The notes under the pieces were generated by a model. That model made no database searches. It was given only the letters and a program-made list of their open reading frames with translations, and had not been told where the DNA came from. Positions 1 through 64,000 of a stretch of DNA of 64,000 bases are shown here, in pieces (the first letter of the stretch is position 1; each line of letters starts with the position of its first letter). Both the position numbers and the translations under genes were made by a program. Source of the stretch: Agrococcus jejuensis (GTDB taxonomy: Bacteria; Actinomycetota; Actinomycetes; Actinomycetales; Microbacteriaceae). The stretch is from contig NZ_LT629695.1 of assembly GCF_900099705.1 (NCBI RefSeq), positions 3,224,001-3,288,000 on the forward strand, written 5' to 3'.

Positions 1-133
1 CGAAGCCCTTCTGCTCGATCAGCGCCGTCGAGAGCGGCGTGAACGCGCCGGGGAAGCGCTGGATGCGCCCCGACGCGAGCCCGAGGCGGAACGCCTGCCG
101 CTTCGCGCGGGCGTCGATGGGGGAGGAGAGCAC
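1..133 (-). CDS. prpB: Methylisocitrate lyase PrpB, N-terminal part (cut by window edge)
   Basis: Splits 2-methylisocitrate into pyruvate and succinate, the last step of the methylcitrate cycle. Only the first 44 codons are visible, reading leftward. They include RFPGAF and PLSTALIEQKGF, which match the conserved N-terminus of the PEP mutase/isocitrate lyase superfamily in PrpB. The start is GTG at 133-131, whose G is also the last base of the prpD stop codon (TAGTG), so translation is probably coupled to prpD. A CAGGGA ribosome site lies about 8 bases upstream inside prpD. Third gene of the gntR-prpD-prpB operon; prpC is expected beyond the edge but cannot be seen. Confidence 0.85.
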   Translation of the reverse strand, partial: MLSSPIDARAKRQAFRLGLASGRIQRFPGAFTPLSTALIEQKGF

Positions 134-1641: not shown

Positions 1642-2300
1642 CGGATCCTCTCGGGCGTGCGGTCGGTCGTGGCGGGCGCGAGCGTGCGCTCGATGCTCGC
1701 CAGGGCGTGGTGCAGGTGCACGTGGGTCGCGTGCGCTGCGAGGTCGGGGTCGCCGGCGGCGATGGCGCGGGCGATGAGCGCATGCTCGCCCGCCGAGGCG
1801 CGCAGGCGCTCGGGCCGGTCGCTCGCGAGGCGGCGCACGCGGCCGAGGTGCGCGCGCACGGGCTGCAGCGAGCGGGCGAGGAAGTCGTTCGCGACGCACG
1901 CCTCGATCGCGGCGTCGAGCTCGGCGACGCGCGCGTAGTAGGCGGCGACGTCGTCGGTGGCGTCGGCGCGCTCGAACGCCGCCGCGAGGGCGGGGAAGGG
2001 GTCGCGCGCGTCGGCGGGCTGCACGGCCGCGAGGCGTGCTGCGGACTCCTCGAGCGCGCGGCGCACGGCGAAGAGGTCGCGGATCTGCGCGAGGTCGACG
2101 TCGGCCACGACCGTGACGCGCGGGCTGCGCTGCACCGCGAGGCCCTCGGCCTCGAGCCGGTCGAGCGCCTCGCGCAGCGGCGTGCGGCTCACGCCGAGGC
2201 GGGCGGCCTGCTCGACCTCGGCGAGCACGGCGCCGGGGGAGAGCACGCCCTGCTGGATGTCGTCGCGCAGCGTGCGGTACACCCGCTCGCCTGCGCGCAT
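1638..2300 (-). CDS. GntR-family (FadR/FCD type) regulator of the prp operon
   Basis: Predicted DNA-binding regulator of 220 residues. Residues about 8-70 form a winged helix-turn-helix with the GntR signature ([19 protein letters not shown]). Residues about 75-205 form an all-helical FCD ligand domain with scattered Arg, Asp and His residues typical of metal- or organic-acid-binding FCD folds. The start ATG at 2300 has a strong GGAGG site 5 bases upstream. It is the first gene of the operon and overlaps prpD by 4 bases, so it probably controls its own operon in response to a methylcitrate-cycle intermediate. The effector is not deducible. Many actinobacteria use other regulator types (PrpR) here. 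Confidence 0.85.
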
Positions 2301-13561: not shown

Positions 13562-15004
13562 ATGAGCGAGGAGCGCATGGGACGGCACGGCGGGCTGCAG
13601 CACGGACCTCGACACGACGACGAGGACGTGCACGACAGCGACCCCGTGCTCGACGCGGAGGTGCGGCGGCGCGAGCGGCTGCGCGATCGGCTATTGCGGC
13701 GCGAGCAGCGCGACGAGCATCCGCACGACCACGCGCACGGGCACTCCCACGGCCCTGTCGCGCCGACGACGCCGCGCACGCGCCTCGTGCTCGCGGCGCT
13801 GCTCGGGCCGATGCTGCTCATCGCGCTCATCGGCATGGCGGTCCTGTGGCCGCATGCCGACGAGATGCCCGAGTCGCTGCCGTTCGCGGCGGCGGGCGCC
13901 GACGTGCTCGAGGTCGAGGCGACCGGCTCGCCCGACCCGGCGACGCAGATCGTCGATGCGACGCTCGACGGCGAGGCGATCACGGTCACGGTCGCACCCG
14001 AGGTCATCGACTCGATCCACGCCGGCGATCGCCTGCGCGTGCTCTACATCCCCGAAGCCGAGATCTACGGCAGCCCGTACGTCTTCGTCGACTTCGCGCG
14101 CGAGATCCCGCTGTGGATCCTCGCGGCGCTCTACATCCTCGTCGTCGCGCTCGTCGCTCGCTGGCGCGGGCTCGCGGCCATCGTGGGCCTCGTCGGCGCC
14201 GGCGCGATGATCCTCGTCTTCACGCTGCCTGCGCTGCTCACGGGGCAACCCGGGCTGCCAGTCGCGCTCGTGACGGCCGCCGTCGTGATGTTCATCGTCC
14301 TGTACGTCGCGCACGGGTTCACGGCGCGAACGTCCACGGCCTTGCTGGGCACGCTCATCGGCCTCGCGTTCACCGCCGGCATCGGCTGGCTCGCGACGCA
14401 GGGCACGAGCATCACGGGCACCGCGACCGAGGATGCGCGCCTGCTGCTCATCCGCGCCGACCTCGACCTGCAGCAGGTCTTCCTCTGCGGCCTCGTGCTC
14501 GCCGGCATGGGCGTGCTCAACGACGTCACGATCACGCAGGCGTCGGCCGTGTGGGAGCTGCGCGCCGCGTCGCCGCTCGCCTCGCGTCGTGAGCTCTTCG
14601 GGCGCGCGATGCGCATCGGTCGCGACCACATCGCCTCGACGGTCTACACGATCGCGTTCGCCTACGTCGGTGCCGCGCTGCCCGTGCTCATGATCATGGT
14701 GCTCACGGAGGCGCCCGGGAACGTCGGATGGACGACGGGGCAGGTCGCCGAGGAGATCGTGCGCACGCTCGTCGGCTCGATCGGCCTCGTGCTCGCGATC
14801 CCGATCACGACGGCGATCGCCGCCGTGGTCGTGCCGTCGCCTGCCGAGCTCGAGGAGGTCGAGGAGGAGGCCGCCGCGGATGCGTCGGGCGAGATCCCCG
14901 TCGTCGACGTGCTCGCCGGCGTCGAGGTCGGCGACCACGACGGCCTGCGCGACGACGAGCGTCCGGACCCGGCGGCCGAGGACGAGGTGCGGCGGCAGCG
15001 CTGA
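13562..15004 (+). CDS. YibE/F-like membrane protein with His-rich N-terminus
   Basis: Predicted 480-residue polytopic membrane protein of the YibE/F family, function unknown. The cytosolic N-terminus carries a histidine run (DEHPHDHAHGHSHG, about 55-68) that could bind metal. A first membrane helix at about 75-100 is followed by an extracytoplasmic domain of about 80 residues and roughly seven membrane helices between 185 and 430, then an acidic C-terminal tail. The conserved GMGVLNDVTITQASAVWEL loop is present. The start is uncertain: ATG 13562 follows a -10-like box by 8 bases, while ATG 13577 has GAGGAG before it. Confidence 0.8.
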   Translation: MSEERMGRHGGLQHGPRHDDEDVHDSDPVLDAEVRRRERLRDRLLRREQRDEHPHDHAHGHSHGPVAPTTPRTRLVLAALLGPMLLIALIGMAVLWPHADEMPESLPFAAAGADVLEVEATGSPDPATQIVDATLDGEAITVTVAPEVIDSIHAGDRLRVLYIPEAEIYGSPYVFVDFAREIPLWILAALYILVVALVARWRGLAAIVGLVGAGAMILVFTLPALLTGQPGLPVALVTAAVVMFIVLYVAHGFTARTSTALLGTLIGLAFTAGIGWLATQGTSITGTATEDARLLLIRADLDLQQVFLCGLVLAGMGVLNDVTITQASAVWELRAASPLASRRELFGRAMRIGRDHIASTVYTIAFAYVGAALPVLMIMVLTEAPGNVGWTTGQVAEEIVRTLVGSIGLVLAIPITTAIAAVVVPSPAELEEVEEEAAADASGEIPVVDVLAGVEVGDHDGLRDDERPDPAAEDEVRRQR

Positions 15005-15107
15005 GCGCGTCGCGCATGCCGCGCGCGTCGGCCGTCGGCGGCGCGCACCCGCGGTCTACGATCGTGACGGCTGGTCGCCGCGGGTGCGACGGAGATGGGG
15101 TCGCGCG

Positions 15108-15980
15108 GTGACGCAGCAGCAGGTCGTGCCGGTGCTCGAGATCGGTGGCACGCACGTGACCGCCGCGCTCGTCGACCTCGCGTCGCACGGCGTGCTCGCG
15201 GAGCACCGCGGGCATCCCGATGCGCAGGGCTCCGCCGACGCGCTGCTGTCGGGCTGGATCGAGACGGCGCGCCTGCTGGGCGACGTCGAGGGCGACTGGG
15301 TCGTCGCGATGCCCGGCCCGTTCGACTACGACGCCGGCATCGGCCGGTTCCGCGACGTCGGCAAGTTCGACAGCCTCGACGGCGTCGACGTGGGTGCCGC
15401 GCTGCGCGAGGCGCTCGGCGCCGACGTGCGCTTCGTGAACGACGCGGATGCGTACGGGCTCGGGGAGTGGTTCGCCGGTGCTGGCGAGGGATCGTCGCGC
15501 GCGGTCGTGCTGACGCTCGGCACGGGCCTCGGCAGCGCGTTCGTCGCCGACGGCGCGCCCGTGTCGTCGGGCGACTCGGTGCCGCTCGACGGCGAGATCC
15601 ACTTCGAGGAGCTGCGCGGCCTGCCCATCGAGGACGTCGTCTCGCGCCGTGCGCTCATGGCTGCCGGCCTCGCGGCGACGGGGGTCGAGCGCGACGTGCA
15701 CGAGCTCGCCATCGCCGCCCGCGCGGGGGAGCCGGCGGCGGCGGCCGTCCTCGCTGCCGGGTTCTCGGCGGTCGGCGAGGTCATCCGCCCGTGGCTCGAC
15801 CGCTTCGGCGCCGAGGTGCTCGTCATCGGCGGCTCGATGTCGCGCTCGTGGGATCTCGTCGAGCCGGCCGTGCTCGCGGGCCTCGACGGCTGGGCCGGAC
15901 GCCTCGAGCGAGCGGCGCTCGGCGACACGGCACCCCTGCTCGGAGCGGCGTGGTTCGGACGAGGCTCTCGAGTGGTGTAG
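15108..15980 (+). CDS. ROK-family sugar kinase
   Basis: Predicted cytosolic ATP-dependent sugar kinase of 290 residues. The N-terminal phosphate loop (VLEIGGTHVTAALVD), the catalytic-Asp region VNDADAYGLGE and the second phosphate motif LTLGTGLGSAFV match the ROK/hexokinase fold. The Cys-rich zinc motif of many ROK proteins is absent; the equivalent stretch reads EIHFEELRGLPIED. The start is GTG at 15108 with GGGG about 8 bases upstream. A TACGAT box at about 15057 may drive it. The substrate is unknown. Its last codons overlap the likely tRNA-Ala promoter. Confidence 0.82.
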   Translation: MTQQQVVPVLEIGGTHVTAALVDLASHGVLAEHRGHPDAQGSADALLSGWIETARLLGDVEGDWVVAMPGPFDYDAGIGRFRDVGKFDSLDGVDVGAALREALGADVRFVNDADAYGLGEWFAGAGEGSSRAVVLTLGTGLGSAFVADGAPVSSGDSVPLDGEIHFEELRGLPIEDVVSRRALMAAGLAATGVERDVHELAIAARAGEPAAAAVLAAGFSAVGEVIRPWLDRFGAEVLVIGGSMSRSWDLVEPAVLAGLDGWAGRLERAALGDTAPLLGAAWFGRGSRVV

Positions 15981-35893: not shown

Positions 35894-37087
35894 ATGACCG
35901 GCCACGAGACCACCCCCATCACGAGGCTCGCGAACGTCCGACCCTGGGGCGGCGGAGCGGTCGACCTCGACGTCGACGGCACGACCATCGCTGCGGTCCA
36001 CCCGCACGGTCAGGCACCGAGGCACGAGGGGGTCGTCGTCGACGGCCAGGGGCTGTGCGCCCTGCCCGGCCTCGTGAACGCGCACGCGCACGTCGACAAG
36101 TCGTGGTGGGGCCTGCCGTGGCAGTCGTACGGCGGCGAGGGTGGCACCGACGGCCGCATCCAGCACGAGCGCGCGCGGCGCGGCGAGCTCGGCATCCCGT
36201 CGACCGGCATCACGGGCGCCGTGCTGCACGAGATGGTGCGCCACGGCACGACGGCGATCCGCACGCACGTCGACGTCGACCTCGGCATCGGCCTCGCGGG
36301 CATCGAGGCGGTGCAGGAGGCCGCGGCGGCGTACGGGGGAGCGCTCGACGTGCAGATCGTGGCGTTCCCGCAGGACGGCGTGCTGCGCCGCCCCGGCGTC
36401 GACCGCCTGCTGCGCGATGCGGTCGAGGCCGGCGCCGTGCATGTCGGCGGGCTCGACCCCGCCTCGATCGACCGCGACCCCGTCGGACAGGTCGACCTCA
36501 TCCTCGGGCTCGCGGCCGACACGGGGGTCGGCGTCGACATCCACCTCCACGATCCCGCCGAGCTCGGCGTGTTCCAGATCGAGCTCGTGCTCGAGCGCGT
36601 CGAGCGCCTCGGCCTGCAGGGTCGCGTCGTCATCGCGCACGGCTTCGCCGTCGCGCAGCTGCCGCCCACGCGGCGCGCCGAGCTGCTGCAGCGCATGGGC
36701 GAGCAGGGCGTCGGCATGACGAGCGTCGCCCCGCTGCGCCTGCCGCAGCTGCCCATGCACGAGCTCGCGGATGCGGGCGTGCGCCTCGGGCTCGGCACCG
36801 ACGGCATCCGCGACCTGTGGAGCCCCTACGGCGATGGCGACACCCTCGCGATCGCGCGTCAGTACGCGAGAGCGTCGAGCCTCGTGCGCGACGAGGACCT
36901 GCTGGCCGCCGTGCGCCTCGCGTCGACCGACGGCGCGTGGGCGGTCGGCCGCGACGTGCACGACCTCGTCGAGGGCGCTCGCGCCGACGTCGTGCTCGTC
37001 GACGCCGAGCACGCGATGGATGCGCTCGTGCGGCTGCCGGAGCGCCGCATGGTGATCGCGGGCGGCCGGATCGTCGCGACCGCCTGA
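35894..37087 (+). CDS. Amidohydrolase (cytosine-deaminase-like)
   Basis: A 397-residue metal-dependent hydrolase. The first metal motif is NAHAHVDKSW (HxH), then THVDVDLGIG, IHLHDP and VIAHGFA supply further His ligands, and GLGTDGIRDLWSPYGDGD carries the catalytic Asp. This pattern and the HVDK tail after the HxH are typical of cytosine deaminase-like N-acyl or amidine hydrolases. Substrates in this clade range from cytosine and creatinine to herbicide-type amides, so none is assigned. AGGAGG about 7 bases before the ATG. It is separated from the next operon by a promoter and operator. Confidence 0.85.
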   Translation: MTGHETTPITRLANVRPWGGGAVDLDVDGTTIAAVHPHGQAPRHEGVVVDGQGLCALPGLVNAHAHVDKSWWGLPWQSYGGEGGTDGRIQHERARRGELGIPSTGITGAVLHEMVRHGTTAIRTHVDVDLGIGLAGIEAVQEAAAAYGGALDVQIVAFPQDGVLRRPGVDRLLRDAVEAGAVHVGGLDPASIDRDPVGQVDLILGLAADTGVGVDIHLHDPAELGVFQIELVLERVERLGLQGRVVIAHGFAVAQLPPTRRAELLQRMGEQGVGMTSVAPLRLPQLPMHELADAGVRLGLGTDGIRDLWSPYGDGDTLAIARQYARASSLVRDEDLLAAVRLASTDGAWAVGRDVHDLVEGARADVVLVDAEHAMDALVRLPERRMVIAGGRIVATA

Positions 37088-37134: not shown

Positions 37135-37163
37135 TTGACGTCGGCGCTGCACCCGTCTACGTT
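37135..37163 (+). promoter_or_regulatory. Strong promoter of the CoA-dependent catabolic operon
   Basis: TTGACG (37135-37140), exactly 17 bases, then TACGTT (37158-37163). This is the best -35/-10 pair in the window. The start point would be near 37170, at the edge of the operator palindrome. Confidence 0.75.
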
Positions 37164-37170
37164 CTCATCT

Positions 37171-37186
37171 AGTCGTCTAGACGACT
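37171..37186. promoter_or_regulatory. Perfect 16-bp operator palindrome, GntR/HutC type
   Basis: AGTCGTCTAGACGACT is a perfect palindrome centred on GTCTAGAC, the core typical of HutC-subfamily GntR operators. It covers about +1 to +16 of the transcript, ideal for repression. The only HutC-type regulator in the window is the sixth gene of this operon (43574-44290). Confidence 0.8.
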
Positions 37187-37216
37187 TGGTACGAGGATGT
37201 GACGAGAGGAGCGACG

Positions 37217-38167
37217 ATGGCGTCGTTGAAGGAAGCACGGTTCGAGCTGGTCGAGGTGCCGGAGCGGTTCGGCCCCGTCGAGGTGCTCGTCGACCGACGC
37301 GCGGTGCTCGACCACGCGTTCGCCCAGGATGACTTCCGCGACTGGTACTTCGTCGACTCGCCCTTCGGTGGACCGGTCGCCCACCCGCTCGTGCTCGCGA
37401 ACGAGCTGCTCTTCCTCTTCTACCAGGGGTACGACGGCAACACGGCGCAGGGACTCCACACCCACGAGCACCTCACGTTCCGCTCTCCGATCCGCCACGG
37501 CGAGACCGTGACGATCGACGGCGGGTACACCGAGAAGTACGAGCGCCGCGGCCAGGGCTACGTCACGCTCGAGGCCACCGCGACCGGAGCCGACGGCCGC
37601 GTGCTCGTCGAGCACGTCGGCCGCGAGATCATGCGCACCGTCGCAGGCGACGTGGTCGGCGGTCGACGCTCCGAGGGCGAGCCGCGACCCCGAACCGTGC
37701 TCGGCACGGTCGACGCGTCTGCGCCGATGGCCGAGCGCGCCGCGCACGGGCTGCCCGAGCGCGCCGCCCTGCCGTCGCGCACCACGACCTTCACGCAGGA
37801 CCAGATGTCGGTGTTCTCGTGGGCAGGCCGTGGCTTCGCCAACGTGCACACGAGCGTCGAGAAGGCGGCGCAGTCGGGCCTCGACCGCACGATCGTGCAG
37901 GCGCAGCAGCAGACCGGCCACGTGCTCGCCAACCTCGTCGACGTCTTCGGGGCCAGCTGGTTCACGAGCGGCGACCTCGACCTGCGCTTCGTCTCGCCCG
38001 CGTTCGTCGGCGACGCACTCACGACCTCGGGAGCCGTGCTCGGCGAGACCGACGGCCGGCTCGAGGTCGAGGTCTGGGTCGAGAAGGCCGATGGCACGCG
38101 CACGGCCGTCGGCTGGGCCTCCGCCGCGATCGACGACGACGACCGACGGCCCGCCAGCATCCTCTGA
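37217..38167 (+). CDS. MaoC-like double-hot-dog protein, paralogue 1 (degenerate dyad)
   Basis: A 316-residue protein made of two hot-dog domains (about 1-140 and 190-305), the FAS1-like dehydratase/MaoC layout also used by mesaconyl-CoA hydratases. Its N-terminal active region reads QDDFRDWYFVD, where the His expected after the Asp is Tyr44. The C-terminal domain keeps FANVHTS. It is a paralogue of the third gene in the operon: both share YERRGQGYV and IVQ-QQQ segments. It may be a structural or specificity partner in a heteromeric hydratase. First gene after the promoter; GAGAGGAG precedes the ATG. Confidence 0.75.
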   Translation: MASLKEARFELVEVPERFGPVEVLVDRRAVLDHAFAQDDFRDWYFVDSPFGGPVAHPLVLANELLFLFYQGYDGNTAQGLHTHEHLTFRSPIRHGETVTIDGGYTEKYERRGQGYVTLEATATGADGRVLVEHVGREIMRTVAGDVVGGRRSEGEPRPRTVLGTVDASAPMAERAAHGLPERAALPSRTTTFTQDQMSVFSWAGRGFANVHTSVEKAAQSGLDRTIVQAQQQTGHVLANLVDVFGASWFTSGDLDLRFVSPAFVGDALTTSGAVLGETDGRLEVEVWVEKADGTRTAVGWASAAIDDDDRRPASIL

Positions 38168-38277
38168 TCCCACCGGCTCGCGGTCCCGCGAGCCCCACGA
38201 ACGCTCGGCGTCGGGCGCCTGCGAGCCTCGGCGCCGAGCATCCCCATCCGGCAGCCCCATTCGACGAAGGAGTCACC

Positions 38278-39627
38278 ATGGCCGCCACCATCCCCACCAA
38301 TCAGAGCGAGCGCACGAACCTCGCGCGCCGCGCCGCCGTCGCGAGCCTCGTCGGCACCGCCGTCGAGTGGTACGACTACTTCATCTTCGGCACGGCATCC
38401 GCGCTCGTGTTCGGACGCCTGTTCTTCCCCAGCGACGGGGATCCCATCTACGGCACCCTCGCGTCGTTCGCCGTGTTCGGCGTCGGCTTCTTCGCTCGCC
38501 CGCTCGGCGGCATCGTCTTCGGGCACTTCGGCGACAAGTTCGGTCGCAAGGCGGCGCTCGTCACGACGCTCATGATGATGGGCATCGCGACGTTCCTCAT
38601 CGGCCTCCTGCCGACGACCGACCAGATCGGCATCGCGGCGCCGATCCTGCTGGTCGTGCTGCGTCTCATCCAGGGCTTCGGCGTCGGTGGCGAGTGGGGC
38701 GGCGCCTCGCTGGTCGCGGTCGAGTACGCGCCGGAGGGCAAGCGCGGCGCGTACGGCAGCTTCCCGCAGATCGGCAACGCCGTCGGCCTCGTCATGTCGA
38801 CGACCATCTTCGCCATCGTCTCGACGCTGCCCGACGAGCAGCTGCTGTCGTGGGGCTGGCGCCTGCCGTTCCTGCTGAGCGCCGTGCTCATCGGCGTCGG
38901 CCTGTTCATCCGCTTCAAGCTCACCGAGACGCCGACGTTCCAGGCGGCGCAGGAGGCGCTCGAGGCGAAGGCCGACGCCGACAAGCCCAAGGAGCAGCTG
39001 CCGATCGCCGAGCTCTTCCGTCGCTTCAAGCGCCCGCTGCTGCTCGCGATGGGCATGCGCTTCGGTGAGGCGGTGTTCGGCTACATCATCCTCACGATCG
39101 GCCTCACCTTCGCGACGAACTACACCGACGTCCCGCGCACCGACGTGCTCATCGCCTCGGCGATCGCCGCGGCCATCGCGATCTACACGTACTACTTCTT
39201 CGGCAGGCTCAGCGACCGGATCGGACGCCGCAAGGTCTTCATCCTCGGCGCCGTCGTGGGTGCGGTGGTGTCGTTCCCGTTCTTCTGGATCCTGGACGCC
39301 GGCAACATCCCGATGATGTACGTCATCTACGCGGTGGCGTACGCGATCGGCGTCGGCGCCGTCTACGGGGTCGAGCCATCGTTCTTCTCCGAGCTCTTCG
39401 GCACGAAGGTGCGCTACACCGGCGTCTCGCTCGCCGCGCAGCTGCCTTCGGTGCTCATCGGCCTGTGGCCGCTCGCTTCGACGGCCATCTTCGCCGCGAC
39501 GGGCGGCGACCCGTGGCCCATCGCGCTCATCACGGTGCTCGCGCTCGCGCTCGGTGGCCTGTGCGCGTACCTCGCACCCGAGACGAACGGCGCCGACATG
39601 AACGCGATCGGCGAGGAGACGCGATGA
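38278..39627 (+). CDS. MHS-family MFS transporter (carboxylate/proton symporter)
   Basis: A 449-residue major facilitator with 12 predicted membrane helices. EWYDYFIFGTASALVFG in helix 1 and the loop motif GHFGDKFGRK are typical of the metabolite:H+ symporter family (ShiA, ProP, KgtP, citrate permeases). A second loop GRLSDRIGRRK marks the second half. It likely imports the acid degraded by this operon. Good GAAGGAG site 5-6 bases before the ATG. The stop overlaps the next start (ATGA). Confidence 0.9.
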   Translation: MAATIPTNQSERTNLARRAAVASLVGTAVEWYDYFIFGTASALVFGRLFFPSDGDPIYGTLASFAVFGVGFFARPLGGIVFGHFGDKFGRKAALVTTLMMMGIATFLIGLLPTTDQIGIAAPILLVVLRLIQGFGVGGEWGGASLVAVEYAPEGKRGAYGSFPQIGNAVGLVMSTTIFAIVSTLPDEQLLSWGWRLPFLLSAVLIGVGLFIRFKLTETPTFQAAQEALEAKADADKPKEQLPIAELFRRFKRPLLLAMGMRFGEAVFGYIILTIGLTFATNYTDVPRTDVLIASAIAAAIAIYTYYFFGRLSDRIGRRKVFILGAVVGAVVSFPFFWILDAGNIPMMYVIYAVAYAIGVGAVYGVEPSFFSELFGTKVRYTGVSLAAQLPSVLIGLWPLASTAIFAATGGDPWPIALITVLALALGGLCAYLAPETNGADMNAIGEETR

Positions 39628-40631
39628 CATCGCATCGCGACCTCACCGATCCGCGTCGCGCCGCCGACGTCGACGACCTCGAGGCCGGCCTCAAGGAGCC
39701 CGAGTTCGAGCGGCTCGCGATCCCCGAGGCCCTCGGACCCGCGACGGTCGTGGTGGACGACCACAAGATCAAGCGCTTCGCCTTCACGCAGGACGACCAC
39801 CACCCGTGGCATCTCGACGCGAGCCCGTTCGACGGGCGTCGCATCGGCCACGCCTCGCTGCTCGGCAACGACCTCGTGCAGCTGTTCACGACCGTCTACG
39901 CCGCGAGCCGCGTCGTCGGTCTGCACACCGAGGAGCAGCTCTGGTTCGACTCGCCGGCCTTCCTCGACGAGGAGGTGACGCTCGCCGGCACGTACACCGA
40001 GGCCTACGAGCGGCGGGGGCAGGGCTACGTCGTCATGGAGGCGACCGCGGTCGGCGCCGACGGTCGCAGCATCCTGCGCCACCGCGGCATCGAGATCCTG
40101 CGCACGAGACCCGGCGACGTCGCGGGGCGCGGCAGCGCGACACCTGCGGACGCGGACGAGCGCGTGACCGGCGAGGTGCCCGATGGTGCGCCCGCGTTCG
40201 ACGCGGATGCGCCGGCGGTCGGGCAGGTGCTGCCGACGCTCGCGAAGACGTTCACGACCGAGCAGGCCGCCGTGTTCTCGCGCATCGGCGAGTACGTGCG
40301 CAACATCCACAACGACCTCGCGCTCGCGCGGGAGGGCGGGATGCGCGTGCCGATCGTGCAGGGCCAGCAGCAGTACGGCGCGATCGCCGAGCTGCTCACG
40401 CGAGCGTTCGGCACGAGGTTCCTCGCGGGCGGATGGCTGCGCGTGAAGTTCCTGAAGACCGTCGACGTGCACGAGCCGATCGCCGTGAGCGGCATCGTCA
40501 CGGGCGTCGACGACGACCGCGTGCACCTGCAGGTGTGGGTGCGCAGAGCCGACGGCGCGCTCAGCGCCGCGGGATGGGCGAGCGCGCCCATCCCGTCCGA
40601 GACCAGCGTCTCGACAGAGACCGGGAAGTGA
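39624..40631 (+). CDS. MaoC-like double-hot-dog hydratase, paralogue 2
   Basis: A 335-residue two-hot-dog protein. The N-terminal active region TQDDHHPWHLD retains an Asp (57/58) and His63 at the spacing of the (R)-specific enoyl-CoA hydratase motif, unlike paralogue 1. The second domain holds VRNIHND. Predicted to add water to, or remove it from, a CoA thioester. The overlap with the transporter stop and near overlap with the ThDP gene show a tightly coupled operon. The paralogue pair flanks the transporter gene, as after a duplication. Confidence 0.78.
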   Translation: MTSHRDLTDPRRAADVDDLEAGLKEPEFERLAIPEALGPATVVVDDHKIKRFAFTQDDHHPWHLDASPFDGRRIGHASLLGNDLVQLFTTVYAASRVVGLHTEEQLWFDSPAFLDEEVTLAGTYTEAYERRGQGYVVMEATAVGADGRSILRHRGIEILRTRPGDVAGRGSATPADADERVTGEVPDGAPAFDADAPAVGQVLPTLAKTFTTEQAAVFSRIGEYVRNIHNDLALAREGGMRVPIVQGQQQYGAIAELLTRAFGTRFLAGGWLRVKFLKTVDVHEPIAVSGIVTGVDDDRVHLQVWVRRADGALSAAGWASAPIPSETSVSTETGK

Positions 40632-40645
40632 AGAGGAAGACGGAC

Positions 40646-42334
40646 ATGACGAACGAGATCACCGGCGGCAAGCTCGTGGTGCAGATGCTCGAGTCGCTCG
40701 GCATCACGAAGGTGTTCGGCGTGGTCGGCGGGCAGACGCTCGCGATCACCGACGCCATCATCGACAGCCCCACCATCGAGATGGTGCACACACGACACGA
40801 GAACGCGGCCGCGGTCATGGCCGACGCGTACGGGCGTCTCACCGGGCGTCCCGCGGTCGCGATCGCGACCACGGGGCCCGGCGCGACCAACCTGCTCACG
40901 GGGGTCGGCGGCGCGTTCCGAGACTCGAGCCCTGCGTTCATCGTCACGTGCAACAACAACGGCGAGAACATCCACAAGGACGACGCGCAGAACGCCGACC
41001 ACGTCGAGATCTTCAAGCCGTTCACGAAGTGGTCGCGCCTCGTGGCTCACCAGACGAGCATCGTCCAGGCGATGGGCGAGGCGTACGTCAACGCGATGAC
41101 GGGCAACCCCGGTCCCATCCACCTCGACTTCGCCCGGGACACGATCGAGCAGACGTTCGACGCGCCGACGGTGCCCGAGGTGCATCCGCTGCGCTCGTGG
41201 GTCGGCACGCGCCCCGTCGCCGCGTCGGATCGCGTCGCCGAGGTGGCTGCGCGCGTGCTCGCCGCCGAGCGGCCCGTCATCTGGGTCGGCAACGGCGCGA
41301 ACCGCGCCCAGGCATCCGACGACGTGCTCGCGCTCGCCGATGCGCTCTCGATCCCGGTCATCACGACGTTCAACGGCATGGGCGCCGTGCCGACGACGCA
41401 CCCGCTCGTCTTCGGAGCGCTGAGCCGCATGGGCACGAACCTGTCGACGCGCGTCATCGGCGACGCCGATCTCGTGCTCGCGCTCGGCAACAGCCTGAAT
41501 GCCGTGTCGACGACGCGCTGGCGCCGCGCGCTGCCCGACGTCGTGCAGGTCGACGTCGACCCCGCGATGATCGGTCGCTACTACGCGGAGGTCACGACGG
41601 GCGTGGTGGGAGACCTCGGCGCCTTCGCGCGCGACCTCGTCGCCGCCACGGTCGACGACGCCGCGGGAGCGCGGGAGGCGCGCGCTGGCTGGATCGCCGA
41701 GCTGCAGCAGGCGGAGCGCGAGTGGTGGGCCATGTCCGACGACCTCAGCCCCGAGAACGAGGGCTCGATCTCGCCAGCGGTCGCCGTTCGCGCACTGCGC
41801 TCCGTGACGCCCGAGGATGCCGTGCTCATCCCCGATGCGGGCAACCCCGGCGTGTGGTCGTACCTGTGGGAGATGGCGAAGCCGTACCGCTACATCAAGC
41901 CCGTCGGCTTCGGCAACATGGGCTTCGCCCTGCCCGCCACGGTCGCCTCGGTCGTCGACGACCCGTCGCGTCCCGTGCTCGCGCTCATCGGCGACGGCTC
42001 GCTCGGCATGAGCCTCGGCGAGCTCGAGACGCTCGCGCGCGCAGGCGGCCCCGCCGTCGTCGTGGTGCTCAACGACTCGTCGTACGGCAACATCCGCCAG
42101 GAGCAGGTGCTGCACTTCGACGGTCGCACGATCGGCGTCGACTTCCTCGACGTCGACTTCGCCCAGGTCGCGCGCGGCATGGGCGTCGAGGGCGTGCGCG
42201 TCACCGACGTCGACGCACTCGTCGCCGCGGTGCGCGACGGCTTCGCGAGTGGCCGGCCGCTGCTCGTCGACGTCGTGCTCGACCGCGCGGCAGACGCGTG
42301 GACGTACCCTGCATTCGCACCGCACGCGGGCTGA
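40646..42334 (+). CDS. ThDP-dependent enzyme, acetolactate-synthase-like, substrate unknown
   Basis: A 562-residue three-domain ThDP enzyme. The PYR domain has the cofactor-activating Glu52 in TRHENAAAVMADAYGRLTG. The middle domain follows (about 195-330). The PP domain has the ThDP motif GDGSLGMSLGE...LND with Mg ligands. It is not obviously oxalyl-CoA decarboxylase or glyoxylate carboligase, and no ACT-type regulatory subunit is nearby, so anabolic acetolactate synthase is unlikely. In this operon it may decarboxylate or ligate a 2-oxo acid or cleave a 2-hydroxyacyl-CoA. The ATG at 40646 has GAGGAAG upstream; GTG 40628 would overlap the previous stop. Confidence 0.82.
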   Translation: MTNEITGGKLVVQMLESLGITKVFGVVGGQTLAITDAIIDSPTIEMVHTRHENAAAVMADAYGRLTGRPAVAIATTGPGATNLLTGVGGAFRDSSPAFIVTCNNNGENIHKDDAQNADHVEIFKPFTKWSRLVAHQTSIVQAMGEAYVNAMTGNPGPIHLDFARDTIEQTFDAPTVPEVHPLRSWVGTRPVAASDRVAEVAARVLAAERPVIWVGNGANRAQASDDVLALADALSIPVITTFNGMGAVPTTHPLVFGALSRMGTNLSTRVIGDADLVLALGNSLNAVSTTRWRRALPDVVQVDVDPAMIGRYYAEVTTGVVGDLGAFARDLVAATVDDAAGAREARAGWIAELQQAEREWWAMSDDLSPENEGSISPAVAVRALRSVTPEDAVLIPDAGNPGVWSYLWEMAKPYRYIKPVGFGNMGFALPATVASVVDDPSRPVLALIGDGSLGMSLGELETLARAGGPAVVVVLNDSSYGNIRQEQVLHFDGRTIGVDFLDVDFAQVARGMGVEGVRVTDVDALVAAVRDGFASGRPLLVDVVLDRAADAWTYPAFAPHAG

Positions 42335-42371
42335 CGCACGGACCGAGACGACACGAAGGGAGGCTGCGACG

Positions 42372-43574
42372 ATGCAGACCTCAGGACACCCGACCGGACC
42401 GCTCGACGGCGTGAAGGTGCTCGACCTCTCGAGGTTCATCGCGGGCCCGCTGTGCGCGCAGATCCTCGGCGACTTCGGCGCCGAGGTCGTCAAGGTCGAG
42501 CGCCCTCGTGGCGAGGACTCGAGGCACCACGGGCCCTACTGGCAGGGCGAGAGCATCTACATGTTCCTCTACCACCGCAACAAGCAGGCGGCGTCGCTCG
42601 ACACGAGGCACCCCGAGGCGCTCGGCATCCTCGAGGATCTCGTGCGGTGGGCCGACGTCGTGGTCGAGAACTATCGGCCGGGCACGCTCGAAGCCATGGG
42701 CCTGGGCTACGAGCGGATGCGCGAGCTCAACGACGACGTCATCCTCGTGTCGATCTCGGGGTTCGGCCAGACGGGACCCGACTCGCGCCGGGCGCTGTTC
42801 GACGCCATCTCCCAGGCGTCGTCGGGCCTCATGAGCATGACGGGGGAGCCCGACGGCAAGCCGACCCTCTCGGGCACCTACATCGCCGACTACACGACGG
42901 GCTACCAGGGCGCGATCGGCGCGATGGCGGCGCTCATGCACCGCGATCGCACGGGCGAGGGGCAGCTCGTCGACGTCGCGTCGTACGACACGATGTTCTC
43001 CGCGCTCGGCACGCGGCTCATCGCCGAGCTCATGCTGGGGCTCGAGATGCCGCGCTCCGGATCGCGCGACCTGCTCACGGCACCCGTCAACGTGTACGAG
43101 GCCGCGGACGGCCCGATCTACATCCAGGCGGGCACGGCGTCGCTGTTCCCCAAGCTGTGCGCGGTCATGGAGCGCGACGACCTCGCCGCCGACGAGCGGT
43201 TCGCGACGGTCGAGGGCCGCATGGCGGAGCAGGAGCACCTCGAGTCGGCGATCCAGGACTGGGCGGGGTCGCGCACCTGCGCCGACATCGCCGCAGCGCT
43301 CGACGAGGTCGGCGTGCCCTACGCGAAGGTCGCATCGGTCAAGGAGGTCGCGGCATCGCCGCAGATCGCTGCGCGCGGCATGGTCGTCGAGGCCGAGCAT
43401 CCCAAGCTCGGCACCATCCGCATGCCGGCGAATCCGATCCACATGGAGAAGTCGCCGCCGACGGTCCGCAAGGCGCCGCCTCGCGTGGGAGAGGACAACG
43501 ACCACGTCTACCGTGACATCCTCGGTCTGTCGGCCGACGACGTCGAGCGGCTGCGAGCGGAGGGCGCGATCTGA
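42372..43574 (+). CDS. CaiB/BaiF-family (class III) CoA-transferase
   Basis: A 400-residue class III CoA-transferase. It has the N-terminal CoA fold (GVKVLDLSRFIAGPLCAQ), ERPRGED, and SISGFGQTGP. The likely catalytic nucleophile is Asp173 in IADYTTG. Transfers CoA between carboxylic acids, probably activating the imported acid with succinyl-CoA or acetyl-CoA, or racemises an acyl-CoA. Formyl-CoA transferase is one member, but the neighbouring ThDP enzyme does not look like oxalyl-CoA decarboxylase. The stop shares a base with the regulator start (TGATG). Confidence 0.88.
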   Translation: MQTSGHPTGPLDGVKVLDLSRFIAGPLCAQILGDFGAEVVKVERPRGEDSRHHGPYWQGESIYMFLYHRNKQAASLDTRHPEALGILEDLVRWADVVVENYRPGTLEAMGLGYERMRELNDDVILVSISGFGQTGPDSRRALFDAISQASSGLMSMTGEPDGKPTLSGTYIADYTTGYQGAIGAMAALMHRDRTGEGQLVDVASYDTMFSALGTRLIAELMLGLEMPRSGSRDLLTAPVNVYEAADGPIYIQAGTASLFPKLCAVMERDDLAADERFATVEGRMAEQEHLESAIQDWAGSRTCADIAAALDEVGVPYAKVASVKEVAASPQIAARGMVVEAEHPKLGTIRMPANPIHMEKSPPTVRKAPPRVGEDNDHVYRDILGLSADDVERLRAEGAI

Positions 43575-44290
43575 TGCAACGGGCTCCGAGGTACTCGGTC
43601 ATCCACGACGACATCGTCGAGCAGGTGCGCACCGGCACGCTCGAGCCGGGGATGCGCCTGCCGAGCGAGTCCGACCTCGCCAAGCGCTACGGCGTGAGCC
43701 GCATGACCGTGCGGCAGGCGCTCGACCTGCTGGCCTCCGACGAGATCGTGGTGCGCAAGCACGGCAGCGGCACCTTCGTGCGCGAGCAGTCGCGCCAGGG
43801 CCGCCACATCGATCGCCTGCGGTCGTTCGCGGCGGAGCTCGCCGACGTCGACGTCGTCGTCGGCAGCGAGGTGGTGCGGGCGGAGCTCGTGGATGCCCCT
43901 GCTGACGTCGCCGAGGCGCTCGGGCTCGAGGCGGGGGACCCAGTGCATCGGCTGACGCGCGTGCGCACGGTCGACGGCGTCCCCGCAGCGCTCCAGGACA
44001 CGTGGATCCCATCGCACGTGGCGCCGAGCCTCACGCGCGAGCCGCTCGAGGGCGGCTCGCTGTACCGCACCCTCGCGGAGCGGCACGGCGTGCGGCTGCG
44101 CTGGGCCGACCAGTCGATGACGGCCGAGCTGCTCGGTGTCGACGAGGCGACGCTGCTGCGCGTCGAGCCCGGCGGCGCCGTGCTGCGCGGCATGCGCACG
44201 ACGTACTCCGACGCCGACGAGCCTGTGGAGTTCACGCACGGCTGGACGCTGCCGAGCTTCCCGCTGCTGCTGCGGATCGACGCCGAATGA
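43574..44290 (+). CDS. GntR-family regulator, HutC subfamily (UTRA domain)
   Basis: A 238-residue regulator. The winged helix (about 5-72) carries RLPSESDLAKRYGVSRMTVR and HGSGTFV. The UTRA ligand domain (about 90-236) contains DTWIPSHVAPSLT and ends in the usual VEFTHGW strand. HutC regulators generally repress by binding palindromes with a GTCTAGAC-like core, which is what sits at the operon's start site. The ligand is probably the substrate or an early product. Start and stop both overlap neighbours, so the protein is made at operon level (autoregulation). Confidence 0.9.
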   Translation: MQRAPRYSVIHDDIVEQVRTGTLEPGMRLPSESDLAKRYGVSRMTVRQALDLLASDEIVVRKHGSGTFVREQSRQGRHIDRLRSFAAELADVDVVVGSEVVRAELVDAPADVAEALGLEAGDPVHRLTRVRTVDGVPAALQDTWIPSHVAPSLTREPLEGGSLYRTLAERHGVRLRWADQSMTAELLGVDEATLLRVEPGGAVLRGMRTTYSDADEPVEFTHGWTLPSFPLLLRIDAE

Positions 44291-45705
44291 TCGCGCTCGA
44301 TCGAGCCGTCGTCGCCGTCGACGTCGGCACCTCCGCCGTGCGCGCCGCGCTCGTCTCGGTCGACGACGGCATCCTTCGCGCCGTGCGCGTGGCACGGACC
44401 GAGGGCGTCGGCGGCGCGACCTACGTCGCCGACGCCCTCCAGCGCGACGTCGAGGGCGCGGTCGCAGCGCTCGAGGTCGATGGGCGACCCGCGGCGCTGG
44501 CGATCGCGGCGCACATCGGTGCCGTAGCCGTCGACGATGCGCTGCAGCCGGTCGTAGCGCCCGGATCGTGGTCGGATGCGCGCGGCCTCGAGCTGCTCGC
44601 CGACATGACGGAGCCGATCCTGCGGCACGTGCTCGCTGCGTCGGGCCGTCCTGCGCCCGCGGGTGGCGGACTCGCGCTCGCAGCCTCGCTCGTCGGCACG
44701 GATGCGGCGCGGCGCGTGGCGAGCGTGCTGAGCCCGAAGGACCTGCTCGTCGCGCGCCTCACGGGTCACGTCGGCGCCGACGTGGTCGACGCCGCGTACA
44801 CGCTCGCGTTCGACGTCGCCGCCGCACGTTGGTCGGACGCCGCCGACGCGCTCGGCGTGCCGCGGGGCTGGCTGCCACCCCTCGCCACGCCCGATGCCCT
44901 GGTCGCGACGCTCGACGAGCACGCGGCGGCGCGGTGTCGTCTCGCACCGGGCACGTCCGTCGTGTCCGGAGCGCCCGATGGCTCGGCGGGCATCGGCATC
45001 CTGCTCGGCACGCGCACGGATGCGATCGCCGACGTCGCGGGCACGACCGACGTGCTCGGCCGTCTGCTCGTCGACCTCGCCGACGCGCCGCGCGGCAGCG
45101 TGCGGAACCCGGCGCTCGTGCCGAGCCGTTGGATCGCCGGAGGAGCGACGGGCATGACCGGGGGAGCCGTCGCCAGGTGGCGCGCGCTCGTCGGTGCCGT
45201 CGACGAGCACGCCATCGCCGACGTGCCCGTCGGGGCGCGGGGGCTGCAGGTCGTGCCGGGCATGTCCGGCACGCGGTTCCCGCGCTGGCGTGCAGACGAT
45301 CTCGGCGCGCTCGTCGGTCAGACGCCGGCGCACGGCGCGGCCGAGATCCTGCGTGCTGCGCAGGAGGGCGCGAGCCACGTCGTGCGCGAGGGCGTCGACG
45401 TGCTCGATCCGTCGGGCTCGCTGCCCGTGGTCCTCGCAGGTGGCTCCACGCGATCGGAGCACGTCGTGCGCATGCGCGCCGCGATCCTCGGGCGGTCCGT
45501 GCTCGTCTCGAGCGATCCCGACGTCACCCTCGCGGGGGCCGCCGGACTCGCGCTCGTCGGAGCGGGGCTCGTGGACGATCTCGACGAGGCACGAGATCGA
45601 CTCGGGATCGCGCTCCGGCACGTCGATCCGGACGCACGCGACGTGACGGCGTACGCCGAGCAGCACGAGGCGTGGCGTGCGACGTGCGACGCGCTCGTCG
45701 GCTGA
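44287..45705 (+). CDS. FGGY-family carbohydrate kinase, substrate unknown
   Basis: A 472-residue FGGY kinase. The N-terminal phosphate loop is VAVDVGTSAVRAAL, the hinge region includes SGAPDGSAGIGIL (catalytic Asp), and the C-terminal domain has VLAGGSTRSEHVVRMRAAIL. It phosphorylates a sugar, polyol or related hydroxy compound. Its presence with CoA-transferase and hydratase genes is unusual and suggests that the substrate carries both hydroxyl and carboxyl functions or yields a polyol fragment. Last gene of the operon, overlapping the regulator stop and followed by a strong terminator. Confidence 0.85.
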   Translation: MIALDRAVVAVDVGTSAVRAALVSVDDGILRAVRVARTEGVGGATYVADALQRDVEGAVAALEVDGRPAALAIAAHIGAVAVDDALQPVVAPGSWSDARGLELLADMTEPILRHVLAASGRPAPAGGGLALAASLVGTDAARRVASVLSPKDLLVARLTGHVGADVVDAAYTLAFDVAAARWSDAADALGVPRGWLPPLATPDALVATLDEHAAARCRLAPGTSVVSGAPDGSAGIGILLGTRTDAIADVAGTTDVLGRLLVDLADAPRGSVRNPALVPSRWIAGGATGMTGGAVARWRALVGAVDEHAIADVPVGARGLQVVPGMSGTRFPRWRADDLGALVGQTPAHGAAEILRAAQEGASHVVREGVDVLDPSGSLPVVLAGGSTRSEHVVRMRAAILGRSVLVSSDPDVTLAGAAGLALVGAGLVDDLDEARDRLGIALRHVDPDARDVTAYAEQHEAWRATCDALVG

Positions 45706-45715
45706 CCTGCACCGC

Positions 45716-45760
45716 ACGACGAAGGGTCGCCCACCTGCACGGTGGGCGCCCCTTCGTCGT
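45716..45760. terminator. Bidirectional terminator hairpin
   Basis: A long stem of about 20 bp (one bulge) runs from ACGACGAAGGG to CCCTTCGTCGT around loop TGCA. It sits between the convergent kinase and DUF3043 genes. Confidence 0.85.
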
Positions 45761-61078: not shown

Positions 61079-62593
61079 CTACTGCACGTCGTCGTCGACC
61101 CAGTCGAGGGTCTTCTGCACGGCCTTCTTCCAGTTGCGGTAGGTGCGCTCGCGCTCGGCCTCGTCGAGCTGCGGCTCCCAGCGCTTGTCCTCCTGCCAGT
61201 TCTTGCGCAGGTCGTCGAGCCCGCCCCAGAAGCCGACCGCGAGGCCGGCGGCGTAGGCGGCGCCGAGCGCCGTCGTCTCGGCGACGACCGGGCGCACGAC
61301 CGCGACGCGCAGGATGTCGGCCTGGAACTGCATGAGCAGGTCGTTCGCCACCATGCCGCCGTCGACCTTGAGCTCGGTGAGGTCCACGCCGGAGTCGGCG
61401 TTCACCGCATCCACGACCTCCGCCGTCTGGAACGCCGTCGACTCGAGCGCCGCGCGGGCGATGTGGCCCTTGTTCACGTAGCGCGTGAGGCCCACGAGCG
61501 CACCGCGGGCGTCTGGACGCCAGTACGGGGCGAAGAGGCCCGAGAACGCCGGCACGAAGTACGCGCCGCCGTTGTCGTCGACGCTCGTCGCGAGCTGCTC
61601 GACCGCAGGAGCGCTGTCGATGATGCCGAGGTTGTCGCGCAGCCACTGGATGAGCGAGCCCGTCACGGCGATCGAGCCCTCGAGCGCGTAGTGCGTGGGC
61701 TCGTCGCCGATCTTGTAGCCGACGGTCGTGAGCAGGCCGTTCTTCGAGTGGACGATCTCCTCCCCCGTGTTGAAGATGAGGAAGTTGCCCGTGCCGTAGG
61801 TGTTCTTCGCCTCGCCCTTGTCGAAGGCCGCCTGGCCGAACGTCGCCGCCTGCTGGTCTCCGAGGATGCCCGTGATGGGCGTCTCGCGCAGCAGGCTCGC
61901 GTCGCTCGCGACGCCGAACTCGCCCGACGACGACTTGATCTCGGGGAGCATCGAGGCCGGCACGCCGAAGTCGGCGAGGATCGACTCGTCCCACGAGAGC
62001 GTCTCGAGGTCCATGAAGAGCGTGCGGGACGCGTTCGTCACGTCGGTCGCGTGCACGCCGCCGTCGACGCCGCCCGTGAGGTTCCACAGCACCCACGTGT
62101 CGGTCGTGCCGAACAGCAGGTCGCCCGCCTCGGCCTTCTCGCGCGCACCCTCGACGTTCTCGAGGATCCACACGATCTTCGTGCCGGAGAAGTACGTCGC
62201 GAGCGGCAGGCCCACCTTGGCCTTGTAGCGCTCGACGTCGCCGTCGGCGAGCCGGTCGACGATCTTCTGCGTGCGCGTGTCCTGCCAGACGATGGCGTTG
62301 TACACGGGCTCGCCGGTGGTCTTGTCCCAGACGACGGCGGTCTCGCGCTGGTTCGTGATGCCGATGGCCTTCACGTTGTGGCGGGTGACGTTGGCCTTCG
62401 AGAGCGCCTGGCCGATGACCTCGCGCGCGTTGTTCCAGATCTCCTTCGGGTCGTGCTCGACCCATCCGGCCTGGGGGAAGATCTGCTCGTGCTCGAGCTG
62501 ACCCGTCGAGACGATGCTCCCGGCGTGGTCGAACAGGATGGCTCGCGTCGAGGTGGTGCCCTGATCGATCGCGATGACGTAGTCGTCGGCCAT
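61079..62593 (-). CDS. glpK: Glycerol kinase GlpK
   Basis: Phosphorylates glycerol to sn-glycerol-3-phosphate. It has 504 residues, the standard length. [15 protein letters not shown] is the phosphate loop, and [13 protein letters not shown] and [12 protein letters not shown] bind glycerol. The second FGGY signature [20 protein letters not shown] and the C-terminal [17 protein letters not shown] complete the fold. AAGGAG lies 5 bases before the ATG at 62593. Downstream of glpF across a strong hairpin. Confidence 0.96.
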
Positions 62594-62659
62594 TGTCACT
62601 CCTTCGTGGTGGGTTCTTCGCTGAGGCTAGGGGGAGCCGCTGTGCACGGCCCATGGGGT

Positions 62660-62700: not shown

Positions 62701-63498
62701 TCAGGCCATGCCGCTCGCGAGCAGCACGGGCGCGAGGAGGCCGGCGAGCGCGCCACCGATGAGCGGTCCCACGACGGGCACCCACGCGTAGCCCCAGTCG
62801 CTGTCGCCCTTGCCCTTGATGGGCAGGACGGCGTGGGCGATGCGGGGCGCGAGGTCACGGGCCGGGTTGATGGCGTAGCCCGTGGGGCCACCGAGCGAGG
62901 CACCGATCGCGACGACCGTGAAGGCCACCGCGAGGGCGCCGAGCGGGCCGACGACCGTCGCGTCGCCGCCGCCGCCGTTGAGGCCGAACGAGAGGATGAC
63001 GAACACGAGCACGAACGTCGCGATGATCTCGGTGACGAGGTTCCAGCCGTACGAGCGGATGCCGGGGCCGGTCGAGAAGGTGCCGAGCTTCGCGCCCGGG
63101 TCCTCCTCGGCGTCGAAGTGCTGCTTGTACGCCGCCCAGGCGAGCACGGCACCGATGAAGGCGCCGACGAACTGGCCGAGGATCGAGATCATGTACGCGG
63201 CCCACGGCACCTCGGCGCCCGTGGCGAGGCCGTTGGCGATGAGGCCGACCGTGACGGCCGGGTTGAGCTGCGCACCCGAGTAGCCGGAGACGAGGACGCC
63301 TGCGAAGACCGCGAGTCCCCAGCCGAAGTTGATCATGAGGAAGCCGCCGCCGAAGCCCTTCGTCTTCGCGAGGACGACGTTCGCGACGACGCCGGCACCG
63401 AGGAGCAGCAGCATCGCCGTGCCCACGGTCTCCGACAGGAAGACCAAACCGAGATTGTCCAACTGGAACCTGCTTTCCACATCGACGCGGGCGGTCAC
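62701..63498 (-). CDS. glpF: Glycerol facilitator GlpF (MIP/aquaglyceroporin)
   Basis: A 265-residue channel with six membrane helices and the two half-helices marked by NPA boxes: SGAQLNPAVTVG (about 80-91) and YAINPARDLAPR. The Asp after NPAR, as in NPARD, is the hallmark of glycerol-conducting rather than water-only channels. The start is GTG at 63498; the GAGGG ribosome site lies in a hairpin arm just upstream. Works with GlpK, which traps glycerol as its phosphate. Confidence 0.93.
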   Translation of the reverse strand: MTARVDVESRFQLDNLGLVFLSETVGTAMLLLLGAGVVANVVLAKTKGFGGGFLMINFGWGLAVFAGVLVSGYSGAQLNPAVTVGLIANGLATGAEVPWAAYMISILGQFVGAFIGAVLAWAAYKQHFDAEEDPGAKLGTFSTGPGIRSYGWNLVTEIIATFVLVFVILSFGLNGGGGDATVVGPLGALAVAFTVVAIGASLGGPTGYAINPARDLAPRIAHAVLPIKGKGDSDWGYAWVPVVGPLIGGALAGLLAPVLLASGMA

Positions 63499-63653: not shown

Positions 63654-64000
63654 ATGAAGAAGCTCATCAACGACCCGTCGAAGGTGGTGGACGAGGCCGT
63701 CGCAGGCATCGCCGCGGCGCACCCCGAGCTGCGCGTGATCGTCGATCCGCCCTACGTCATCGCACGCGGCGACGCGCCCGTGCAGGGCAAGGTCGGGCTC
63801 GTGTCGGGCGGTGGCTCGGGCCACGAGCCGCTGCACGGCGGCTTCGTCGGCTACGGCATGCTCGACGCGGCCGTGCCCGGCGCGGTCTTCACGTCGCCGA
63901 CGCCCGATCCGATCGTCGAGGCGACGAAGGCCGTCGACGGCGGGGCGGGCGTGCTGCACATCGTGAAGAACTACACGGGCGACGTGCTGAACTTCGAGAC
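63654..64000 (+). CDS. dhaK: Dihydroxyacetone kinase subunit DhaK (cut by window edge)
   Basis: The first 115 residues of the dihydroxyacetone-binding subunit. [19 protein letters not shown] is the usual N-terminus, [16 protein letters not shown] holds the substrate contacts and the loop that precedes the covalently binding His further on, and FTSPTPDPI and [14 protein letters not shown] are strongly conserved. PTS-dependent systems encode dhaL and dhaM next; these would lie beyond the edge. Divergent from glpFK, fitting a glycerol/dihydroxyacetone region. Confidence 0.93.

Follow-up and report, generated by a model that had tools for sequence, protein, structure and literature searches.

A 64,000-nucleotide stretch of Agrococcus jejuensis DNA (contig NZ_LT629695.1, positions 3,224,001 to 3,288,000 of the forward strand; hereafter the window) carries a seven-gene operon that we read, with a probability of roughly 45%, as a module for the coenzyme A (CoA)-dependent breakdown of a sugar acid or a very similar polyhydroxy acid. 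The operon is real and conserved, and it joins known enzyme families in a combination not found described in the open-access literature. Its gene content, its conservation, the co-occurrence of its genes and a conserved operator site were observed directly. The features, in window coordinates and with each score followed by the model cut-off where one applies, are given below (ThDP, thiamine diphosphate).

37135..37163, plus strand: possible promoter TTGACG-17-TACGTT, read from the sequence and below the promoter-scan threshold
37169..37188, strandless: operator palindrome CTAGTCGTCTAGACGACTTG with core GTCTAGAC, where the GntR/UTRA regulator probably binds
37217..38167, plus strand: MaoC1, predicted double hot-dog (de)hydratase, 316 residues, in its own clade (PF01575 44.4 bits against 27; PF13452 23.9 bits)
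38278..39627, plus strand: MHS-type proton symporter, 449 residues (TIGR00883 407.4 bits against 443.45; shikimate transporter model 368 bits)
39624..40631, plus strand: MaoC2, predicted double hot-dog (de)hydratase paralogue, 335 residues, in a clade apart from MaoC1 (PF01575 32.1 bits against 27)
40646..42334, plus strand: ThDP enzyme of the acetolactate-synthase fold, 562 residues, a distinct orthologous group on a separate long branch (PF02775/PF02776/PF00205)
42372..43574, plus strand: CaiB, class III (CaiB/BaiF) CoA-transferase, 400 residues (PF02515 417.8 bits against 23.3; Asp aligned with Frc and YfdE)
43574..44290, plus strand: GntR/UTRA regulator of the HutC superfamily, 238 residues (PF07702 122.3 bits, PF00392 78.7 bits, both above cut-off)
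44287..45705, plus strand: FGGY sugar kinase, 472 residues (PF00370/PF02782, FGGY_N 50.8 bits against 28.8 and FGGY_C 55.7 against 27)
45716..45760 (core), plus strand: terminator-like hairpin without a T-run (folding energy -45.6 kcal/mol, z -6.67)

Gene calls and domain scans returned seven genes on one strand between 37217 and 45705, with the domain content first proposed from the letters of the stretch alone (the sequence-only reading). The same reading had nearly all junctions overlapping by 1-4 bases; the spacings in gene order are +110, -4, +14, +37, -1 and -4 bases, so that only three of the six overlap, and an alternative GTG start at 40628 would add a fourth. It had also placed the genes between a strong promoter and a strong terminator. 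The promoter did not hold up, as the consensus scan found none ahead of the operon and the visible pair is weak, its second hexamer being poor. Of the terminator, the very stable hairpin stands and the T-run is missing, a scan for T-run terminators 3' of the kinase gene having returned none. The operon boundaries look right, since the gene directly upstream on the same strand, a cytosine-deaminase-like amidohydrolase (35894-37087; 390.9 bits, just short of the 408 cut-off of an amidohydrolase subfamily model), has no tblastn match in any of the 31 related loci described below. Among the matches listed (the best 25 for three of the proteins) no NCBIfam model scored above its cut-off for any of the seven proteins, and MaoC1 and MaoC2 had no NCBIfam match at all; none of the seven can therefore be named by a curated equivalog.

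The operon was followed through its ThDP enzyme. A protein search gave 755 relatives at E<=1e-60, the best 120 of which all share at least 67% identity and have among their sources Microbacterium, Herbiconiux, Nocardiopsis, Saccharopolyspora, Brevibacterium, Pseudonocardia, Prauserella, Streptomyces, Micromonospora and one Mesorhizobium. A scan of 84,980 species genomes, which depended on two exact peptide patterns and might overlook relatives of intermediate identity, gave 64 loci, 28 of them at 67-84% and the others at no more than 31%. Among 299 genomes of the family, identity was at least 69% in four (the window's own included) and 35-36% in three others; judged by this apparent gap, the orthologous group looks sharply bounded. 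In the samples of the order (396 genomes) and the class (394 genomes) the orthologue occurred solely in the window's own genome, and the cluster is thus rare and patchy. The CaiB tree places Nocardiopsis among Agrococcus and Microbacterium (7 rows, 100/98), which, together with the patchiness, would fit transfer between lineages. A plasmid search gave five records with ThDP relatives of 31-33% and none for the FGGY kinase, so that no catabolic plasmid is informative.

The 31 related loci comprise the 28 of the wide scan and L072-L074, longer stretches from the window's family, and they cover 13 named genera. Not counted are the short stretches L001-L007 (L001 is the window, L002-L004 were replaced by L072-L074, and L005-L007 hold 34-36% relatives) and the distant ThDP relatives L036-L071 (25-31%), which have nearby only distant relatives of CaiB (28-38%) or of the regulator (26-31%).

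The ThDP enzyme and an FGGY kinase (38-59% identity) lie on the same strand in all 31 loci, and each stretch holds some CoA-transferase. The CaiB orthologue is present in 28 loci; of the other three, L073 and L074 have a second CaiB type, and L017 has a pair resembling class I CoA-transferases, in each case some 8 kb away from the ThDP gene. The first subunit of the L017 pair falls under its NCBIfam cut-off, and Pfam CoA_trans is above cut-off on the L030 relatives. MaoC2 occurs in 28 of 31, on the opposite strand and about 3 kb away in L013, L014, L015 and L035; it is missing from L017 and L025, and the L028 stretch ends at a contig end. A member of the MaoC1 clade is found in 22 loci, plus fragments in L015, and the MHS symporter at 66% identity or more in 21. 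MaoC1 (24 rows, 96/87) and MaoC2 (29 rows, 100/100) form separate clades in the MaoC tree, and CaiB (29 rows, 98/98) stands apart from a less firm group CaiB' (9 rows, 87/94); segments under 300 residues (CaiB) or 220 residues (MaoC) were excluded from the trees, and the L015 MaoC1 pieces are hence absent.

Co-occurrence was controlled with gene-less genomes in the 299-genome family sample only. There, orthologues of MaoC2 (at least 63%) and of the ThDP enzyme occur together in the same four genomes and neither in the other 295, one further genome having a MaoC2 relative at 37% only. MaoC2 was also found in 27 of 29 ThDP-bearing genomes (those of L009, L022 and L028 left out). Failure of the genes to co-occur outside this strain was to have counted against the sequence-only reading; its proposal of a self-contained operon for an unnamed pathway is instead supported by conservation and co-occurrence, and like that reading we found no described pathway combining these families in the open-access PMC literature.

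A palindromic operator of the CTAGTCGTCTAGAC type lies 5' of the operon's first gene in the window, as it does in 23 of the 31 relatives. The window's 20-mer, just 3' of the TTGACG-17-TACGTT pair, equals its own reverse strand with two mismatches, and shuffled versions of the window gave no match to the palindrome; the operator that had been proposed ahead of the operon is thereby borne out as a palindrome. The 31 loci hold 43 GTNTANAC sites in total. In 23 loci a site lies at most about 110 bases from the operon's first gene, L033 having two overlapping ones. No such site precedes the operon in the remaining eight, namely L013, L014, L015 and L035, which are split and divergent, L017 and L025, which are without MaoC, and L022 and L028, which are contig ends. 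Three further operator-like sites were seen, one ahead of a TRAP importer-class I CoA-transferase-CaiB' operon in L030 and one each in L027 and L031, with AroE-like genes on one side and Gfo/Idh-SDR-CoA-transferase genes on the other. In L033 the site before the first gene precedes a sugar-type importer leading into CaiB'-MaoC1. The remaining 16 of the 43, of which no fewer than seven fall within CaiB or MHS genes, were counted as background. As an exact 14-mer, CTAGTYGTMTAKAC is present in 18 of 29 genomes, against none for the reversed control pattern; by coordinates, 17 of these 18 matches are the pre-operon site, and the last, in genome G244, has a regulator on one side and an SDR gene on the other. 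The sites before importer and CoA-transferase genes outline a regulon, and the operon's own GntR/UTRA protein would bind the core as a repressor.

The ThDP enzyme keeps the ThDP glutamate (E52) and a GDG...N motif. Glu52 is invariant in all 17 aligned members of the group, whereas E. coli Gcl has Val there, and the stretch HKDDAQ aligns with HKEDFQ of Gcl (HK[DE]D-x-Q shared). In the tree the enzyme sits on a long branch of its own, leaning weakly to the side of acetolactate synthase, Gcl and PoxB (88/87) and not grouping with E. coli Oxc; it is 25% identical to E. coli Oxc and 27-28% to E. coli Gcl and IlvB. Its best solved relative is BbmA (289 bits with the A1 profile, against 212 for the lyases 7pt1-7pt4). 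Three names were rejected: biosynthetic acetolactate synthase (TIGR00118, 350.7 bits against 538.35), glyoxylate carboligase (Glu52 is retained instead of Val), and oxalyl-CoA decarboxylase or 2-hydroxyacyl-CoA lyase, weakly, as E. coli Oxc, off whose branch the enzyme lies, was the sole representative of its family and is a long branch. The enzyme would make a C-C cut at the carboxyl end of its substrate, either a CoA ester or a free 2-oxo acid.

CaiB is a class III CoA-transferase, and the Asp that aligns with Frc and YfdE is presumably its catalytic residue; it was rejected as a succinyl-CoA:mesaconate CoA-transferase (NF041294, 256.8 bits against 700). FGGY kinases act on sugars and polyols. 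The Asp of the APDG segment in this one aligns one residue out of register with the XylB Asp (GGDN), which we take to be the catalytic aspartate of the second FGGY half. Xylulokinase was rejected (TIGR01312, 132.4 bits against 380.25), and the XylB segment QMHG, whose Met-His is presumably a substrate motif, is HIGA here. Similarly, the regulator is not named HutC, the histidine utilisation repressor (TIGR02018, 127.6 bits against 220). The symporter narrowly misses its near full-length, best-scoring family model.

The importers point to the class of substrate. Among the ten loci outside the MHS set, importers, labeled mostly by eye, are CUT1-like in L017, L019, L020, L027 and L031, an ABC set of simple-sugar/nucleoside-like type in L025 and a TRAP set in L030, the L028 stretch being cut. 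The binding protein of L033 matches sugar-binding proteins (at most 76 bits) and its permease is PF02653, and that of L017 has a weak match to sugar/sorbitol types (30 bits). The five best solved relatives of the L030 TRAP binding protein are 4x8r, 4n8y, 4p1l, 4xfe and 7bbr; PMC11668362 reports structures with glucuronate (4X8R), galacturonate (4N8Y) and 2-keto-3-deoxygluconate (7BBR). Every locus has an FGGY kinase and several of the alternative importers are of sugar or sugar-acid type; what best unites the loci is a substrate that is either a sugar acid or an acid made by oxidising a sugar. Candidates weighed from general knowledge were quinate/shikimate, 2-carboxyarabinitol and isosaccharinate; none was favoured by the data, and a search of the open-access literature for them came back empty. 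Two more distant CaiB-MaoC pairs in one relative, genome G244, lie in carbohydrate-gene surroundings (labeled partly by eye): behind the pair in L119 (4150-7408) come a DHDPS-family gene and a CUT1-like importer, and the pair in L118 (8463-10687) sits in an 18 kb stretch that also contains a class II aldolase and a DUF1537-type kinase.

From this we infer the substrate class, the order of the steps, the bond that is cut and the substrate of the kinase. The MHS symporter would import the acid and CaiB would transfer CoA onto it, after which, for substrates that require it, the CoA ester may be (de)hydrated by MaoC1 and MaoC2. The ThDP enzyme would then make its cut at the (former) carboxyl end and release a carbonyl-bearing fragment of the sugar, most probably a ketose, which the FGGY kinase would phosphorylate for entry into central metabolism; the GntR/UTRA protein would repress the operon at the GTCTAGAC operator until lifted by an intermediate. 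A more specific version is doubtful, namely that aldonic or branched sugar acids are broken down as CoA thioesters, with MaoC replacing the metal-dependent sugar-acid dehydratases and a new ThDP family cutting the sugar-acyl-CoA to a ketose that FGGY captures.

Several observations weigh against the sugar-acid module or its individual steps. For the MHS symporter the top-scoring models are acid models, shikimate among them, and the importers of L073 and L074 are, by eye, ABC sets of polar-amino-acid-like type. Many TRAP crystal ligands were co-purified, a caution given in PMC11668362. In L120 (9616-11864) a distant CaiB-MaoC pair stands beside hydantoinase-like and RidA-like genes and an amino-acid-type importer (by eye), and is possibly another CoA-dependent pathway using such a pair. 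In the L017 and L025 genomes the ThDP-FGGY core is retained and no MaoC2 relative is present at E<=1e-20; MaoC hydration, a step in the sequence-only reading, therefore cannot be universal. SSADH-like aldehyde dehydrogenase genes occur in 4 of the 31 loci, and an aldehyde rather than a ketose could be released. Finally, E. coli Oxc has in its NARN segment an Arg that we take to be a CoA-site residue; the aligned ThDP enzyme has no counterpart to it and may thus act on a free 2-oxo acid. The acyl-CoA-binding arginines of ApbHACL/S are R260 and R400 according to PMC11271303.

In a less likely alternative, dehydration comes first: CaiB and MaoC would turn an aldonyl-CoA into a 2-keto-3-deoxy acid, CaiB would pass the CoA on, and the ThDP enzyme would decarboxylate or ligate the free 2-oxo acid to an aldehyde or ketol that is then oxidised or phosphorylated. 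The weak placement of the enzyme on the acetolactate synthase/Gcl/PoxB side and the HK[DE]D-x-Q stretch shared with Gcl are in line with this, as are an ALDH gene immediately 3' of FGGY in L072 (5810/5811) and the L119 pair, with its DHDPS-family gene and sugar-type importer. On the other hand, the L017 and L025 genomes keep the core without a MaoC2 relative, and the retention of CaiB in L025 would be unexplained.

A loop through formyl-CoA, as in 2-hydroxyisobutyrate and oxalate metabolism, appears unlikely. Here the ThDP enzyme would cut a 2-hydroxyacyl-CoA sugar acid to formyl-CoA and an aldose or ketose, and CaiB would pass the CoA from formyl-CoA to the next acid. The set found in every stretch, a CoA-transferase, a ThDP enzyme and a kinase, would suit this scheme, the best solved relative of CaiB is named a formyl-CoA transferase (10uh, 248 bits), and PMC7176365 offers a precedent for the lyase step. 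However, the ThDP enzyme lies outside the Oxc branch at 25% identity, and the window genome gave no match to the models for formyltetrahydrofolate synthetase or molybdopterin formate dehydrogenase, the only two tried, which speaks mildly against a large flow of formyl-CoA or formate.

The sequence-only reading itself, in which a non-sugar hydroxy or unsaturated acid of the mesaconate/itaconate type is imported, activated, hydrated and cleaved, is distinctly unlikely. MHS symporters transport carboxylates, the MaoC and CaiB families match, and CaiB scores 257 bits with the mesaconate transferase model, but this is far under the cut-off of 700, and neither the FGGY kinase nor the sugar and sugar-acid importers of several relatives fit a simple acid as well as they fit a sugar acid. 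Very improbable is a route in which a ThDP dione hydrolase like IolD or cyclohexanedione hydrolase opens the ring of a cyclitol-type (quinate/shikimate-like) acid and CoA steps follow: the shikimate transporter is the symporter's second-best model, cyclohexane-1,2-dione hydrolase is among the weaker solved matches of the ThDP enzyme (152 bits) and L027 and L031 have an AroE-like gene, but that cluster is confined to these 2 of 31 loci and no dehydroquinase was recognised in the stretches read, in which not all genes were model-scanned.

Compared with known systems, the operon resembles the Actinomycetospora 2-hydroxyisobutyrate pathway and the oxalate Frc/Oxc pair in that an acid is activated with CoA before a ThDP enzyme of the same fold acts, and E. 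coli frc/oxc in having a class III CoA-transferase beside the ThDP enzyme. It differs from both in having MaoC proteins and a sugar kinase as well, with sugar-type importers in the relatives, and in a ThDP enzyme off the Oxc branch. HCL, the activating enzyme in Actinomycetospora, is presumably a CoA ligase. The precedent that comes nearest is in Actinomycetospora, where 2-hydroxyisobutyryl-CoA undergoes thiamine-dependent cleavage and the acid is activated with HCL (PMC7176365), whereas the operon has a transferase.

From acetolactate synthase and Gcl, with which it shares the fold and the ThDP motifs (Glu52 as in the former, HK[DE]D-x-Q as in the latter), the ThDP enzyme is set apart by its low identity, its long branch, its score of 350.7 of 538.35 and, in Gcl, the Val for Glu. 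The mesaconate and itaconate CoA pathways use hot-dog hydratases and a class III CoA-transferase, as the operon does; in the operon, CaiB stays under the curated cut-off and no citramalyl- or methylmalyl-CoA lyase is found among the seven genes. To our knowledge those pathways have neither a ThDP enzyme nor an FGGY kinase, in agreement with the sequence-only reading. Pathways for xylulose, apulose and 3-keto-gulonate share the FGGY kinase and, with the operon's relatives, sugar-type importers; we know of no CoA chemistry in them, and the operon's kinase is under the xylulokinase cut-off (132.4 of 380.25). Sugar acids are abundant in plants and soil, and no description of their breakdown as CoA esters was found in the open-access literature. 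The cluster contains a ThDP group to which no reaction has been assigned; its conserved operator and the binding proteins of the importers lend themselves to direct screening, so that a small ligand panel could test which acid is used.

The class I CoA-transferase-like pair, which could presumably be a transferase or an IpdAB-like hydrolase, recurs in L030 (5939-7608), L017 (137-1857) and L027 (19743-21448), with its first subunit in 8 of 31 loci and low scores to named families. A second, distant CaiB-type gene (L079, 10225-11679; 38% identity) lies in the same genome to the left of the window, well away from the operon, and two more CaiB-family genes occur elsewhere in that genome. The L079 gene was not joined to the pathway, being a 38% relative in a stretch with a citrate/methylcitrate-synthase-like gene (14063-15187). 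By eye, the latter and a PrpD-like gene at the left edge of the window (133-1899) suggest a methylcitrate cycle. At the right edge lie, again by eye, glycerol kinase-like (61079-62599), glycerol facilitator-like (62701-63498) and dihydroxyacetone kinase-like (63654-63998) genes.

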